In this document: positions 2,493 to 7,773 of the stretch, in pieces
Position numbering within the stretch: the first letter of the stretch is position 1
How the letters are laid out: the number at the start of each line of letters is the position of its first letter
Assembly (NCBI RefSeq): GCF_018448935.1
Contig: NZ_RCWC01000008.1
Location: 62,001-126,000 of the forward strand
Direction: 5' to 3'
Source of the DNA: Photorhabdus noenieputensis
GTDB lineage: Bacteria; Pseudomonadota; Gammaproteobacteria; Enterobacterales; Enterobacteriaceae
DNA length: 64,000 nucleotides
The notes under the pieces: generated by a model
What the model was told of the DNA's origin: nothing
Databases searched by the model: none
The model's input: the letters and a program-made list of their open reading frames with translations, nothing else
Translations under genes and position numbers: made by a program

Positions 2493-3872
2493 TTACACGT
2501 TGTGGCGAACTTCTATAATTAGCAGAGACTCACTTAGCTTATCGATAAGCTCGCTGAATACCTGACGAGATTGAATATCTAAATTAGCATCCCACTCATC
2601 TAACATCAGGATCTCTATCTTATCCACTGCCTTAACAGAGATTTCCTTAAGAAATTCCCGCAGTTCCTGCCCAGTCGACAGATTCTTTTCATTAGTTTTT
2701 TCAAAAACAAGTTCATGATGTGCCGGAAGGTAATAAGCCGACTCACCCAGCTGCTCCTTGAGCCAGCAAAGAAAAGTAGACTTACCCACTCCATTTGGCC
2801 CTCTAATTGTGATTCGGCCAGACGACGGAACTGGCTTAATAATAAGTTCTTTTAAACTCGCCAAGTCTGGCAAAGTGCCATGAGTTTCGTATTTCAAGCG
2901 ATTCCATTGGATTCGCTCCTCCAGATTCTGCGATGTCCTTGGAGTCTCTACAGCCTGTCCTAACCCCTTGAGCCTCGCACTCAATGCCGACCAACTCGTA
3001 GAATAGAAAATCACGACATATGCGTGCTGAAGAATAAGAACTTGGCGAGGTAAGGTTGCAACTAAAACCGTGAGAACAGGAGGATTGTCCATATTTTCCA
3101 AGAAGAGAACACTTGTCCAGACAAGTACCGGTGCCATCATTAGTAGCATTCCCAACGCTGAAGCAAGATTATTCCAGTATTGGCTACGAACCGCTGTTCC
3201 TAAAGCCAAACTCTGTCGGACCTTCAGTTCACTTTGATAAATAGACTGATTGTATTTATTGCCCAATAGGAAATTGTCCCACGCCAAAGATAAAACACGT
3301 TGAAGGGCTGTTCTGGCAGATTGAGCTTCTGTTCCCTTTGCATGAATTCTTTTTCTAAAGAAAAAAATGACGCTCGAAACAAAGGCAAGACCAACAAGGT
3401 AGGACCATGCAATCGACGTATCAAGGACAAAAGAAAGGGCAAGTACATTCAATGAAACATTTAGAACAACAGAGGCCCAATCAAAGATAAATTTGGAACT
3501 TTCATTAAAAACCAAAAACCCTTCTGAGGACACATAGGGCAAATGATAGTCTTTAAACTCTTTACTCGTTCGAATAGAAGCCCGATTCCAGAAATTAAGA
3601 CGAAACCTTTCGACATATTTCTCAAGTGCAAGAAACTTAGACTTCTCAAGAAAAACAGCAGCTAAGCTAGAAGGAATATAGACGAGTGTAAGAGAAAGTA
3701 TAAAAAGGACAAGATACAGAGTAAAATTCTCATTGGCACTTACCTGTTTTGCCAGCCCCGCTATCCAATAAGTAGAGGAGGCCACAATTAACTGTTGGAC
3801 AATAAGAAAAATCAAAGCAAAGGCAAATGCTTTATTAATTAAAAATTCAATAGCCGACTTTTTTACTTCCAT
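2493..3872 (-). CDS. ABC transporter (fused membrane and ATPase domains), probable peptide exporter
   Basis: A 459-residue half-transporter. Residues 1-300 hold about six hydrophobic segments. The ATPase part is short: Walker A GPNGVGKS near 358-365, a signature-like LSTGQ near 398-402, Walker B ILMLDE near 421-426, and the H-loop histidine two residues before the end. The region between Walker A and signature is only about 35 residues, so the ATPase domain is reduced compared with the usual 200 or so. No N-terminal C39 peptidase domain is present, so leader removal must come from elsewhere. The start overlaps the methyltransferase gene by 10 bp, implying translational coupling. Export of the modified peptide is inferred from context; self-immunity by efflux is equally possible. 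Confidence 0.75.
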   Translation of the reverse strand: MEVKKSAIEFLINKAFAFALIFLIVQQLIVASSTYWIAGLAKQVSANENFTLYLVLFILSLTLVYIPSSLAAVFLEKSKFLALEKYVERFRLNFWNRASIRTSKEFKDYHLPYVSSEGFLVFNESSKFIFDWASVVLNVSLNVLALSFVLDTSIAWSYLVGLAFVSSVIFFFRKRIHAKGTEAQSARTALQRVLSLAWDNFLLGNKYNQSIYQSELKVRQSLALGTAVRSQYWNNLASALGMLLMMAPVLVWTSVLFLENMDNPPVLTVLVATLPRQVLILQHAYVVIFYSTSWSALSARLKGLGQAVETPRTSQNLEERIQWNRLKYETHGTLPDLASLKELIIKPVPSSGRITIRGPNGVGKSTFLCWLKEQLGESAYYLPAHHELVFEKTNEKNLSTGQELREFLKEISVKAVDKIEILMLDEWDANLDIQSRQVFSELIDKLSESLLIIEVRHNV

Positions 3873-4741
3873 CTTAATCTTATTTTTCTTTCAGTAGATA
3901 CAAACTTCAATTGTCCACTAGAGATTCCCTTGGGAATTCCTGCATAACTGTGAAGCCAGTGCGTCTTAGGTTCGAATACGTAATTACTTAACTTAACACC
4001 GTCTGCAAGCTCAGCCTCAAAATAAAAATGGATAGCATTTGCACGTTGAGACGCCTTGCATTCGACGGAATACTCTGTGTCTGAGTTCTTATCCAGTCCA
4101 AGATTAAATCGACGAATGAGTTTTGGTTCAGAGCAAACTTCCACTCCATCTGATTTGATAATTTTTTTTCTAATCAAATTGCAGAATAAGCGTTCAAACT
4201 CGGACACTAGTTCTGCCGGAACAGGACCAAATCGAGAGGCGTAACTACTCAATAAAAGATCAAAATCGGCGTTTAGTTCAGGCAAGTGTATAAACTGATA
4301 TTTAAGACTCACTTTAGAAGGAATCAGCATTTTGATACTTGGGTGTCTAGTACAAAAATCGTGGCAGATCTCAACAATACCTTCATCGATTCCAAAATAA
4401 CCCAAGGTTTCTGTCACAAGAACATCCGGCAGATTCTTCAACTGGACATCAAAAGATTTTTTGCTAATGTACTGGATATTTTTACTTAAACCCCTATTGA
4501 GTATTTGAGCAACAATACTACTAGCTTCCAACATGTCTATATAAGTAACCAATCCATTAGTTTTCTGAGCTAACATCTGAGTTAGAACTCCAGTCCCTCC
4601 CCCTAAATCAACTACATGAGAATCCTCTTGAACAATTCGATCGATTGCAGTTTTGAAGCAGTTCAAACGATGTTCATCAGCAAGCATTCTCGAATGGTAC
4701 AAAAGTGGAAATGTTTCCATAGAGCCTTTTATTTCAACCAT
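3863..4741 (-). CDS. SAM-dependent methyltransferase, PRMT-like
   Basis: A 292-residue class I methyltransferase. LLYHSRMLADEHRLNCF (residues 13-29) resembles the first signature of protein arginine methyltransferases. VVDLGGGTG (43-51) is the SAM-binding motif I, and VTETLGYFGIDE (109-120) resembles their double-E loop region. The C-terminal half is beta-rich, like the PRMT barrel. The ATG overlaps the stop of the HExxH gene (TAATG), so the two are coupled. By context it would methylate the 45-residue precursor peptide encoded upstream, which carries two arginines in its C-terminal part. The fold is well supported; arginine as the target residue is inference, and another nucleophile is possible. 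Confidence 0.75.
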   Translation of the reverse strand: MVEIKGSMETFPLLYHSRMLADEHRLNCFKTAIDRIVQEDSHVVDLGGGTGVLTQMLAQKTNGLVTYIDMLEASSIVAQILNRGLSKNIQYISKKSFDVQLKNLPDVLVTETLGYFGIDEGIVEICHDFCTRHPSIKMLIPSKVSLKYQFIHLPELNADFDLLLSSYASRFGPVPAELVSEFERLFCNLIRKKIIKSDGVEVCSEPKLIRRFNLGLDKNSDTEYSVECKASQRANAIHFYFEAELADGVKLSNYVFEPKTHWLHSYAGIPKGISSGQLKFVSTERKIRLRWK

Positions 4742-5613
4742 TATGCAAGCTTCTTCTCTCGTCCTACCATTAGATCAAGATACCCCTGACACTTCTTCAT
4801 AATTGACTGGCCTCTTTCCGTGATTAAATCCCTATAGTTAGGAAGATCAGCCAAAGAATTTAATGCCTCCAGCGCCTGTGTAAGCATCTTATCCGATGGC
4901 GGATGAACGTGGCATTTTTCTGGTTCTCCGAGATAGTTTCGTCTCACCAAGAGAACTTCTACAGCTACGACGATACTATGAAAGACTTTATCGATAGGGC
5001 GCTTAATGTTGAGTATTGCTGATTTTGCAAAATTGGCTTCATTCTGGAGAAGCTTGTAGTCATGGAAGTGCAAGTATCTGAGTTCGTCTATAAAAACTAG
5101 ATTATGAGTAAGTTCATGGACCAACAATTCCGTGAGATCTTGTACGTGCCAGTGTTTACGGCTGTTAATCCAAATCACACCCACAGCGTTCGAGGTAGAA
5201 CCGCCCCCTGAATTCTTTGAGTCTCTCAGAAATAAACTATCTATCGCCATCTGAAATACAGCGTATATCTGTGGCATCCTTAGCTTCAATTCTTCTAATG
5301 CAGCTAACAAAAACTCCAGTCGTTGCTTACGAACATCGTCTTTCAGACTATCGCCAATCAGAGATGATTGATCTCTATCATTTAGCAAAGCGTCTGTTCG
5401 ATAAAGCTCTACCAGCTTGTCTTCCATCTCAGGGGTCTCGACTATCTGAGTTCCTACACTCTCTAACCGCGGAACGTTGGGTTGATAGCCCTTTAAAAAA
5501 TTATGAAATCCAAGCTCCAATTCTTCAGACGTTTTGGGAGCTATTTTTGATTTTAATGCACTAAGAACAGCTAGATTTCTGTAAACCTCGTTAATACCAA
5601 TGAGGTGTATCAT
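4741..5613 (-). CDS. HExxH peptide-modification protein (alphaKG-HExxH hydroxylase-like)
   Basis: About 290 residues. The ATG at 5613 is chosen because AGGGGG lies 6 bp upstream; an in-frame TTG at 5655 would add 14 residues and overlap the attenuator hairpin. HELTH lies at residues 166-170, inside a helical segment (LTELLVHELTH). A later block RPIDKVFHSIVVAVEVLLVR (205-224) matches the second conserved region of HExxH putative peptide-modification proteins. Members of that group studied in RiPP pathways are alpha-ketoglutarate and iron dependent beta-hydroxylases of peptide side chains, not proteases. The gene sits directly after a short precursor-like gene and before a coupled methyltransferase. 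A metalloprotease function is the alternative and cannot be excluded from sequence. Confidence 0.65.
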   Translation of the reverse strand: MIHLIGINEVYRNLAVLSALKSKIAPKTSEELELGFHNFLKGYQPNVPRLESVGTQIVETPEMEDKLVELYRTDALLNDRDQSSLIGDSLKDDVRKQRLEFLLAALEELKLRMPQIYAVFQMAIDSLFLRDSKNSGGGSTSNAVGVIWINSRKHWHVQDLTELLVHELTHNLVFIDELRYLHFHDYKLLQNEANFAKSAILNIKRPIDKVFHSIVVAVEVLLVRRNYLGEPEKCHVHPPSDKMLTQALEALNSLADLPNYRDLITERGQSIMKKCQGYLDLMVGREKKLA

Positions 5614-5628
5614 ACTATACCCCCTTTG

Positions 5629-5664
5629 AAAAAAGAGGGGATACTGTCGAATCAAATCCCCCCT
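5629..5664 (-). terminator. Attenuator-like hairpin between precursor and modification genes
   Basis: On the minus strand AGGGGGGAT pairs with ATCCCCTCT (9 bp, one G-U) across a 13-base loop, followed by a run of T. It lies just after the precursor stop codon and before the HExxH start. It would end most transcripts after the precursor and let some through, a common RiPP arrangement that yields excess precursor. Confidence 0.65.
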
Positions 5665-5672
5665 ATTTATAA

Positions 5673-5810
5673 TTAGACCAAATCATCATAAGCGATCATT
5701 CGAACATGAACGAAACAGCCTTCCTCATTTCGCATAACTTCAACATTGTCTTGTGCTTGTATGAAATCAAGTTCGTTTAGATCTTCTAAAATCTGTTCAA
5801 GAGTAGCCAT
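5673..5810 (-). CDS. RiPP precursor peptide candidate, 45 aa
   Basis: The first 24 or so residues are acidic and leader-like (MATLEQILEDLNELDFIQ...). The C-terminal 20 (MRNEEGCFVHVRMIAYDDLV) are richer in Cys, His, Arg, Tyr and Asp and form the likely core. AGGGG lies upstream of the ATG at 5810, and a strong promoter lies 33 bp before the ATG. The gene is followed by a terminator-like hairpin, then by a modification enzyme, a methyltransferase and an ABC transporter on the same strand. There is no Gly-Gly cleavage site. Being first in the operon, of this size and with this composition, it fits a ribosomally made, modified peptide. I do not recognise the product. It could alternatively be a small unrelated protein. 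Confidence 0.65.
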   Translation of the reverse strand: MATLEQILEDLNELDFIQAQDNVEVMRNEEGCFVHVRMIAYDDLV

Positions 5811-5842
5811 ATTTTTCCCCTTTTTTACCGTGGTTAAAGATA

Positions 5843-5871
5843 AAAGTAGAAGTTGATCAGAGTTCTGTCAA
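5843..5871 (-). promoter_or_regulatory. Sigma70-type promoter of the RiPP-like operon
   Basis: On the minus strand TTGACA (5871-5866), a 17-bp spacer and TACTTT (5848-5843). The -35 is a perfect match with optimal spacing; the -10 matches at the first and last positions. It faces the 45-residue precursor gene. Confidence 0.65.
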
Positions 5872-6165: not shown

Positions 6166-7773
6166 ATGAAAAAAACAATAAAAAACATATCATTATTCAC
6201 AGGAATAATAATTGGAAACTTAACATTATCTTATGCGGCAATTATTCCACCCGGTACACAACTGGCAACCAACCAGAATATTGTTCGTCATAATGGCTCA
6301 GAACCTGCTTCTCTTGACGTGCATAAAGTTGAAAGCGATGTTGAGTTTGATATTATAAACGACTTTTTTAGTGGCTTAATTAGTATAGGAAATGATGGTA
6401 AGTTTAATCCTAATTTAGCTATCCGTTGGGAAACTAACGATAATAAAACCTGGGTGTTTCATCTAAGAGAAGGAATAAAATGGTCTGATGGTTCACCTAT
6501 TACCGCTCACGATGTGGTTTTTAGTTGGAGACGTTTAATTGATCCTCAAATGGCATCCCCGTATGGCAGTTATATTGAAAACATGTATATAGTCAATGCT
6601 AAAGATATTCTTGCTGGTAAGAAAAAAACCGATGAATTAGGTGTAAAAGCATTAGATAATTTAACGGTAGAAGTAACATTAGAGCAACCGTTATCCTATT
6701 TTTTAAATATGCTGGCACATCCAGTGATGGTTCCTATCAGCCAGAAAGCGGTTGAGAAGTATGGTGAAAAATGGACTCAACCGAATATGTTTGTCAGTAG
6801 CGGCCCATTTAAACTCTCTGAATGGATCGTCAATGAGAAGGTAATTGGCATCAGGAATCCACAATATTGGGATAATGAACACACCGTGATTAATAAAGTC
6901 ACCTATCTTAACGTAACATCAGAAACAGCAGTGGTGAACCGTTATTTAGCAGGAGAAATAGATATTACCAAGGGTATCCCATCGGTTTTATTTAAATCAT
7001 TAAAAAACAAGTTAGGCAGCCAGGTCCATATTTCACCTAAATTATCTGTTTATTATTACGAATTTAACACCCAAAAAGCCCCTTTTAACGATATTAGAGT
7101 CAGACAAGCATTAAATCTGGCTTTAGACAAAGACATCATAACCAATAAAGTTTTGGGGCAAGGCCAAAAGCCAGCCTATAATAATACTCCACCAAACGCA
7201 GGAGGAATGAACTTAAAACAGCCTGATTATGCATCATGGACGCTGGCAAAAAGAATTGAAAAAGCCCGGCAGTTATTGAATGAAGCCGGTTATAACAGAA
7301 ATAACCCATTGAAATTTAATCTTCTTTACAATACATCGGAGGATCATAAAAGGATTGCTATTGCAGCTACCTCAATGTGGAAGAAAAATCTGGGCGTAGA
7401 TGCTGTCTTACAAAATCAAGAATGGAAAACAATGTTAGACACCATGCATCAAAGTAACTTTGATTTGGTAAGACACGCATGGATAGCTGATTACGATAAT
7501 CCTGCTTCGTTTTTAAATAATTATGTCACCAATAGTTCTAATAATACATCATTATATCATAACGATATTTATGATGATCTGATTAGTAAGGCCAAAGCAA
7601 CAAACGACATAGAATATTTCCAGCAAGCACAAGATATTCTTACAAGAGATGTCCCGTCAATTCCTATTTATTACTATGTTAGTGCCAGATTAGTAAAACC
7701 TTATATTGGTGGATACTATATCAGCCCTCTCGGTCTTATGTCATCGAAAGATCTTTATGTTATTAAACATTAA
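6166..7773 (+). CDS. Periplasmic oligopeptide-binding protein (OppA/MppA family)
   Basis: A 535-residue extracytoplasmic solute-binding protein of family 5. An N-terminal signal peptide ends near SYAA (about residue 25). Family features include the EPASLDVHK block, GIKWSDGSPITAHDVVFSW, SGPFKLSEW, YYYEFNTQKAPFND and a C-terminal YVIKH identical to E. coli MppA. Length matches OppA/MppA (about 540). It binds peptides, or in MppA murein tripeptide, and delivers them to an Opp-type ABC permease in the inner membrane. No permease or ATPase genes adjoin, so it must share the housekeeping Opp transporter. A hairpin terminator follows. The family is certain; the exact ligand is not. Confidence 0.9.
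   Translation: MKKTIKNISLFTGIIIGNLTLSYAAIIPPGTQLATNQNIVRHNGSEPASLDVHKVESDVEFDIINDFFSGLISIGNDGKFNPNLAIRWETNDNKTWVFHLREGIKWSDGSPITAHDVVFSWRRLIDPQMASPYGSYIENMYIVNAKDILAGKKKTDELGVKALDNLTVEVTLEQPLSYFLNMLAHPVMVPISQKAVEKYGEKWTQPNMFVSSGPFKLSEWIVNEKVIGIRNPQYWDNEHTVINKVTYLNVTSETAVVNRYLAGEIDITKGIPSVLFKSLKNKLGSQVHISPKLSVYYYEFNTQKAPFNDIRVRQALNLALDKDIITNKVLGQGQKPAYNNTPPNAGGMNLKQPDYASWTLAKRIEKARQLLNEAGYNRNNPLKFNLLYNTSEDHKRIAIAATSMWKKNLGVDAVLQNQEWKTMLDTMHQSNFDLVRHAWIADYDNPASFLNNYVTNSSNNTSLYHNDIYDDLISKAKATNDIEYFQQAQDILTRDVPSIPIYYYVSARLVKPYIGGYYISPLGLMSSKDLYVIKH

Follow-up and report, generated by a model that had tools for sequence, protein, structure and literature searches.

A candidate RiPP cluster in Photorhabdus noenieputensis pairing an aKG-HExxH-type oxygenase with a PRMT-like methyltransferase

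Introduction

Enzymes of the alpha-ketoglutarate (aKG)-HExxH type were recently recognised as iron/alpha-ketoglutarate dioxygenases, and the passages dealing with them describe their transformations as unpredictable at present (PMC13060819). In the relevant passages of the literature, PflC/PosC, PesO and BipH appear as aKG-HExxH enzymes of pathways for ribosomally synthesised and post-translationally modified peptides (RiPPs) (PMC12636437, PMC13060819, PMC12707348). Here we describe a compact locus encoding such an enzyme on the minus strand of a 64,000-nucleotide stretch of Photorhabdus noenieputensis DNA (contig NZ_RCWC01000008.1, in our numbering G000:C8:62001-126000; hereafter the window), taken from a genome of 5.36 Mb. 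The four genes of the locus are:

5810-5673, minus strand: precursor peptide gene, 45 amino acids, from the list of open reading frames (ORFs)
5613-4741, minus strand: gene of an aKG-HExxH-type peptide oxygenase, 290 amino acids counted from the ATG
4741-3863, minus strand: gene of a methyltransferase resembling protein arginine methyltransferases (PRMTs), 292 amino acids
3872-2493, minus strand: gene of a divergent ATP-binding cassette (ABC) protein, a probable exporter, 459 amino acids

The HExxH and methyltransferase genes overlap by 1 bp and the methyltransferase and ABC genes by 10 bp, just as an earlier note on this DNA had placed them. The mechanically called ORF of the HExxH gene runs from a TTG at 5655, but we place the start at the ATG at 5613 because the homologues begin there (alignment A4). 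With a probability of about two in three, we read the locus as a RiPP cluster made up of a conserved peptide, an HExxH oxygenase, a PRMT-like methyltransferase and an ABC exporter, with the chemistry proposed below.

Results

The precursor peptide contains no GG, and neither Pfam nor NCBIfam gave a match for it at E 1 or better; a double-Gly site or a leader of known class is frequent in RiPP precursors without being a requirement. Its protein sequence is identical in genome G007 and in P. akhurstii, 96% identical in P. tasmaniensis and 71% identical in Acerihabitans. Between the window and P. tasmaniensis, 12 codon differences are synonymous and two nonsynonymous, giving a ratio of nonsynonymous to synonymous substitution rates (dN/dS) of 0.028. 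Because the differences are biased in this way, and because the tail of the peptide recurs in relatives, the small ORF is more than a chance reading frame. The recurring part is:

5682..5702, minus strand: conserved C-terminal segment RMIAYDD, precursor residues 37-43, the probable modification site

Its recurrence was assessed in 30 HExxH loci, 27 of which came from a pattern-based scan of a collection of species genomes and three from plasmids (L015-L017). The scan used two short peptide patterns and is not a full census of HExxH genes; four other plasmid records and the HExxH proteins of L011-L014, which are more distant, stand outside the set. When ORFs ending at most 450 bp upstream of the HExxH start were considered, the motif [RVKIN]-M-x-[AILT]-[YFH] was found within the last 32 residues at 23 of the 30 loci (24 of 95 such ORFs), as against 19 of 3,895 small ORFs elsewhere in the same loci. 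Within the last 25 residues, the narrower M-[IA]-A-[YFH]-[DN] was present at 10 loci and in one of the 3,895 control ORFs, and [RVIQLN]-M-[QIAN]-[AILT]-[YFH] at 20 loci and in nine control ORFs. The tails include RMIAYDDLV in the window, RMIAYDDLA in Acerihabitans, RMIAYDNK in Moraxella bovoculi, RMIAYND and RMIAYED in Acinetobacter, RMAAFD in a Deltaproteobacterium, VMIAFN in a Bdellovibrionales genome, VMIAHD in two cyanobacteria and RMQIH in Bacillales and Staphylococcus warneri.

The RiPP-type assignment proposed in the earlier note thus finds support in a small gene that is conserved beside modifying enzymes. The same note had expected a variable core, and the reverse was seen: it is the C-terminal tail that is kept, while the part before it varies. 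Such conservation would fit a fixed role of the tail better than a diversifying antimicrobial. Two candidate precursors are unusual in their own right. In M. bovoculi (L022:5761-5926) the leader-like and motif-bearing stretches lie in two frames, which may reflect a frameshift, an error in sequencing or the use of another start, and in Cohnella (L033:5380-5610) the segment LLKMKIHE occurs twice.

The HExxH protein scores 59.7 bits against TIGR04267, the model of aKG-HExxH peptide oxygenases, for which the cut-off is 40. Its signature is:

5104..5118, minus strand: HELTH motif, residues 166-170 (alignments A4 and A5)

H166, E167 and H170 are invariant in 20 sequences (A5), as is H212. In a comparison of the AF2 model (mean predicted local distance difference test score, pLDDT, 92) with known structures, ChlB-HExxH and SjiH ranked far above all other chains, and the modelled fold is that of an alpha-ketoglutarate oxygenase rather than of a protease, in agreement with the type assigned to the protein earlier; no grouping with proteases was seen. 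Sequence searches of the PDB with HExxH proteins returned nothing useful, and viral contigs gave no result for either the HExxH protein or the methyltransferase. At E<=1e-12 the profile built from A4 detected the subfamily only in the window's own genome among 369 genomes of the class and 398 of the phylum, two draws that overlap. A distant HExxH protein (L014:5360-6346) was observed in a genome of the same order beside a YcaO protein (4383-5375; Pfam 34.5 bits, cut-off 25.7) and an 86-residue ORF with a GG (6547-6807), a RiPP-like set spanning L014:4383-6807.

The HExxH enzyme probably hydroxylates or trims the peptide. It might, within the same RiPP family, act mainly by cleaving the backbone oxidatively at the Ala of RMIA-YDD to leave a shorter peptide amide, with the methyltransferase acting before or after. 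Such a reaction is described in the passages on PflC/PosC, whose oxidative cut falls at the Ala within a C-terminal ARMD motif; a larger side chain at that position leads to hydroxylation without cleavage (PMC12636437). It would also fit the lack of a protease-like gene among the four and the presence of Ala at that position in most Gram-negative motif ORFs. The residue is not universal, however, being Ile or Leu in the tails of Bacillales and Staphylococcus and Thr in L028 and L030, and PflC was likened to the window enzyme by description and not by direct comparison. We regard cleavage as the main reaction as rather unlikely.

For the methyltransferase the best PDB matches by sequence were PRMTs (6dnz at 2e-7 and 1g6q at 2e-6). 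The class I S-adenosylmethionine motif I, VVDLGGGTG, and the post-I acid D69 align with 1g6q, and two loops, which we take to be the arginine-binding elements of PRMTs, can be located:

4382..4414, minus strand: double-E loop TETLGYFGIDE, residues 110-120, aligned with the loop of 6dnz and 1g6q
3956..3964, minus strand: THW loop, T260-H261-W262, in a weak alignment with 6dnz (domain 2, score below zero)

The spacing of E111 and E120 equals that of the double-E loops in 1g6q and 6dnz. Judged by sequence, then, the methyltransferase is PRMT-like, as had been proposed, and both loops typical of these enzymes are retained, the likeness to their barrel and dimerisation arm being uncertain. In comparison with G007 its dN/dS is 0.10, and with P. 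akhurstii 0.20, values given without a significance test.

The enzyme is narrowly distributed. Among the 36 HExxH loci L011-L046 it was found by tblastn (E 0.01) in P. akhurstii only. Three intact copies are at hand (window, G007 and P. akhurstii), and P. tasmaniensis retains the last 13 residues. At E 0.001, 22 of 274 genomes of the class have a match, the window's own included and not necessarily all of them PRMTs; in 20 fetched loci around the best matches of other gammaproteobacteria, tblastn found no HExxH relative, and the search in plasmids gave no result. A methyltransferase of the Methyltransf_11 family lies directly 3' of the HExxH gene in L025, L026 and L030 (two cyanobacteria and one Acidimicrobiales); these three enzymes are mutually related, and the two that were compared have no significant match to the window enzyme. 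Since Acerihabitans has no methyltransferase between its HExxH and ABC genes and these three loci have one of another type, methylation looks, from the sequences, like an optional step that was acquired at least twice.

It was also considered that the target is not arginine but a carboxylate, the new hydroxyl or the N-terminus. The three Methyltransf_11 loci would speak for this; in their precursors the motif Met is preceded by V instead of R. Those enzymes, however, are without the two loops, whereas the window enzyme retains both double-E glutamates and THW, and we find a target other than arginine doubtful.

The ABC protein has a long N-terminal part that is membrane-spanning in appearance, keeps a P-loop, LSTGQ and LDEWDANLD, and ends at EVRH. 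It is not truncated, since the Acinetobacter homologue ends at the same residues. No Pfam ABC model scored above its cut-off, the protein being too divergent. Homologues adjoin the HExxH gene at nine of the 30 loci, one of them cut by a contig end, which supports its inclusion in the cluster, and it is likely an exporter. A major facilitator superfamily (MFS) protein follows instead in other loci, namely a Staphylococcus aureus plasmid (annotated as such), L034 and L039 (Pfam MFS) and L033 (just under the cut-off). ABC proteins of the same kind were also seen after a DUF6875 protein, and not an HExxH protein, on plasmids of Methylophaga (L070:5020-7326) and Moraxella osloensis (L069:4975-6956); a small upstream ORF of the former ends in CPPYHLDPDCGWGGGWSW. 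These sets are possibly a second peptide-modification system with a shared exporter.

The motif ORF, the HExxH gene and the ABC gene occur together in Acerihabitans, Moraxella, Acinetobacter (A. gerneri and a plasmid), a Deltaproteobacterium and a Bdellovibrionales genome. In Acerihabitans the HExxH and ABC genes are 61 bp apart with no methyltransferase between them. The P. akhurstii HExxH gene has 99% identity to that of the window, and dN/dS across the four genes ranges from 0.00 to 0.20. With the methyltransferase found in Photorhabdus only and the ABC gene adjoining at fewer than a third of the loci, the comparison does not support the four genes as the unit for which they had been taken.

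Two regulatory candidates were mapped:

5843..5871, minus strand: promoter-like element, TTGACA at 5871-5866, a 17-nucleotide spacer and TACTTT at 5848-5843
5629..5664, minus strand: attenuator-like stem-loop with a T-run, between the precursor and HExxH genes

While TTGACA is perfect, TACTTT matches three of six positions of a -10 element and is weak, and the pair was not among the hits of the consensus promoter scan. By its sequence a promoter upstream of the precursor gene is plausible, not strong, so that the strong sigma70-type promoter of the earlier note was an overstatement. The attenuator-like hairpin from the same source fared better. It is present at 5664-5634, with 12 pairs and a run of six T. 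By folding without a shuffle control, four relatives have a stem-loop at the corresponding position: it comes with a T-run in G007, P. akhurstii and P. tasmaniensis but lacks one in Acerihabitans. Compared with its shuffles, the window stretch shows no clear gain in stability (z -1.18; 23 of 200 equally good), and the hairpin scanner did not list it. Position and recurrence in four relatives are therefore a better argument for an attenuator than folding stability is. The stem-loop may serve to let the precursor be made in excess.

Upstream of the cluster, at 6166-7773 of the window, lies a solute-binding protein gene (SBP_bac_5), which adjoins the cluster in G007 too. Downstream, at 1309-2245, transposase-like ORF fragments are probably the remnant of an insertion sequence, as read from the ORF list alone.

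Discussion

We infer the reaction, the modified residue, the order of the steps, the export and the function from the genes, their conservation, the fold of the HExxH protein and the PRMT hallmarks. Following the action of the oxygenase or preceding it, the PRMT-type enzyme would, in Photorhabdus, methylate an arginine guanidine, either that of R37, which belongs to the motif, or that of R27, and the ABC protein would export the product. As no protease gene lies in the cluster, trimming would be oxidative, performed by a protease encoded elsewhere, or absent.

Several points weigh against this reading. Its support comes from sequences and models, and the chemistry is a proposal. The motif pattern was widened after the loci had been inspected, and the 30 loci are not independent, as they include two from Photorhabdus and several from close Bacillales. 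No motif ORF was found at seven of the 30: L038, L040, L041 and L046 have short HExxH ORFs, three of these loci offering under 450 bp of upstream sequence, while L042, L044 and L045 are Actinomycetes. For the methyltransferase, Pfam PRMT_C stays below its cut-off (E 0.0034; 17.8 bits against 27), the structure model (pLDDT 41, from two near-identical sequences) was not used, and a further, strong PDB match belongs to a profile including clearer PRMT-like homologues, not to the window protein alone. R37 is also present in Acerihabitans, Moraxella and Acinetobacter relatives without a methyltransferase, and enzyme and motif arginine thus do not co-vary. Finally, the cluster occurs in three of 12 Photorhabdus genomes and is broken in one of them, P. 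tasmaniensis (L010:3959-6021), where the HExxH gene is interrupted and the methyltransferase nearly all deleted, with the peptide and ABC genes intact. This patchy presence and the transposase-like fragments downstream might suggest a decaying or recently acquired island that has no current product and carries the methyltransferase as a passenger, which is improbable: between intact copies the three larger genes, and so also the methyltransferase, have a dN/dS of 0.10-0.20, and the peptide gene has 0.028 against P. tasmaniensis.

As a separate observation, in two of the Actinomycetes, Streptantibioticus (L044:5456-5632) and Streptomyces (L045:5671-5895), the ORF upstream of a related HExxH gene ends in NVCMMGGWTA and NCMMGGWTS, respectively, so that these two share a tail of another type.

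Within the RiPP reading we tentatively suggest, as a possibility that we hold with less confidence than the reading itself, a new RiPP family. It would be defined by an M-x-[AILT]-[YFH] tail and an aKG-HExxH enzyme, would span Proteobacteria, cyanobacteria and Firmicutes, its exporters and methyltransferases being interchangeable, and would in Photorhabdus have recruited a bacterial PRMT for methylation of a peptide arginine guanidine. In the open-licence literature, among the matches listed, we found no description of arginine guanidine methylation of a RiPP, of this precursor family or of a PRMT-type enzyme in a RiPP cluster, which is no proof of absence; one RiPP paper among the matches has PRMT5 only as a reference-list entry, and none of the papers listed by a search on this modification contains the word dimethylarginine. 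With a precursor, one oxygenase, one exporter and a conserved target segment, the system is a simple one in which to learn aKG-HExxH chemistry. If the proposal is true, a PRMT-type enzyme acting on a 45-residue peptide would offer a bacterial parallel, in minimal form, to the arginine methylation of eukaryotes.

Comparison with known systems

Like PRMT1-type enzymes (1g6q and 6dnz), to which it is tied by the sequence matches, the double-E spacing and THW, the window methyltransferase has the hallmarks of arginine binding; it differs in being bacterial, 292 residues long and part of a peptide operon. Compared with the HExxH domain of ChlB (PDB 8s5f), to which it is 14% identical, the window HExxH protein stands alone and has another precursor. 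Its identity to SjiH (PDB 22ob) is 12%, the likeness being one of structure. PesO (nitrilobacillin) and BipH (biphenomycin) are, in the passages that treat them, likewise aKG-HExxH hydroxylases acting on a RiPP precursor, but their partners are an MNIO together with either an Asn-synthetase-like protein or radical SAM, JmjC and arginase proteins, and these passages name no PRMT-like enzyme. The PflC/PosC clusters of Pseudomonas, as described in the available text (PMC12636437), differ in having a nitrile-hydratase-like leader, a motif of a Gln run and ARMD, and GNAT and MNIO-nitroreductase partners, the word methyltransferase being absent from that text. They share with the window a stand-alone aKG-HExxH enzyme, no protease gene nearby and a conserved C-terminal motif with Ala, Arg and Met.

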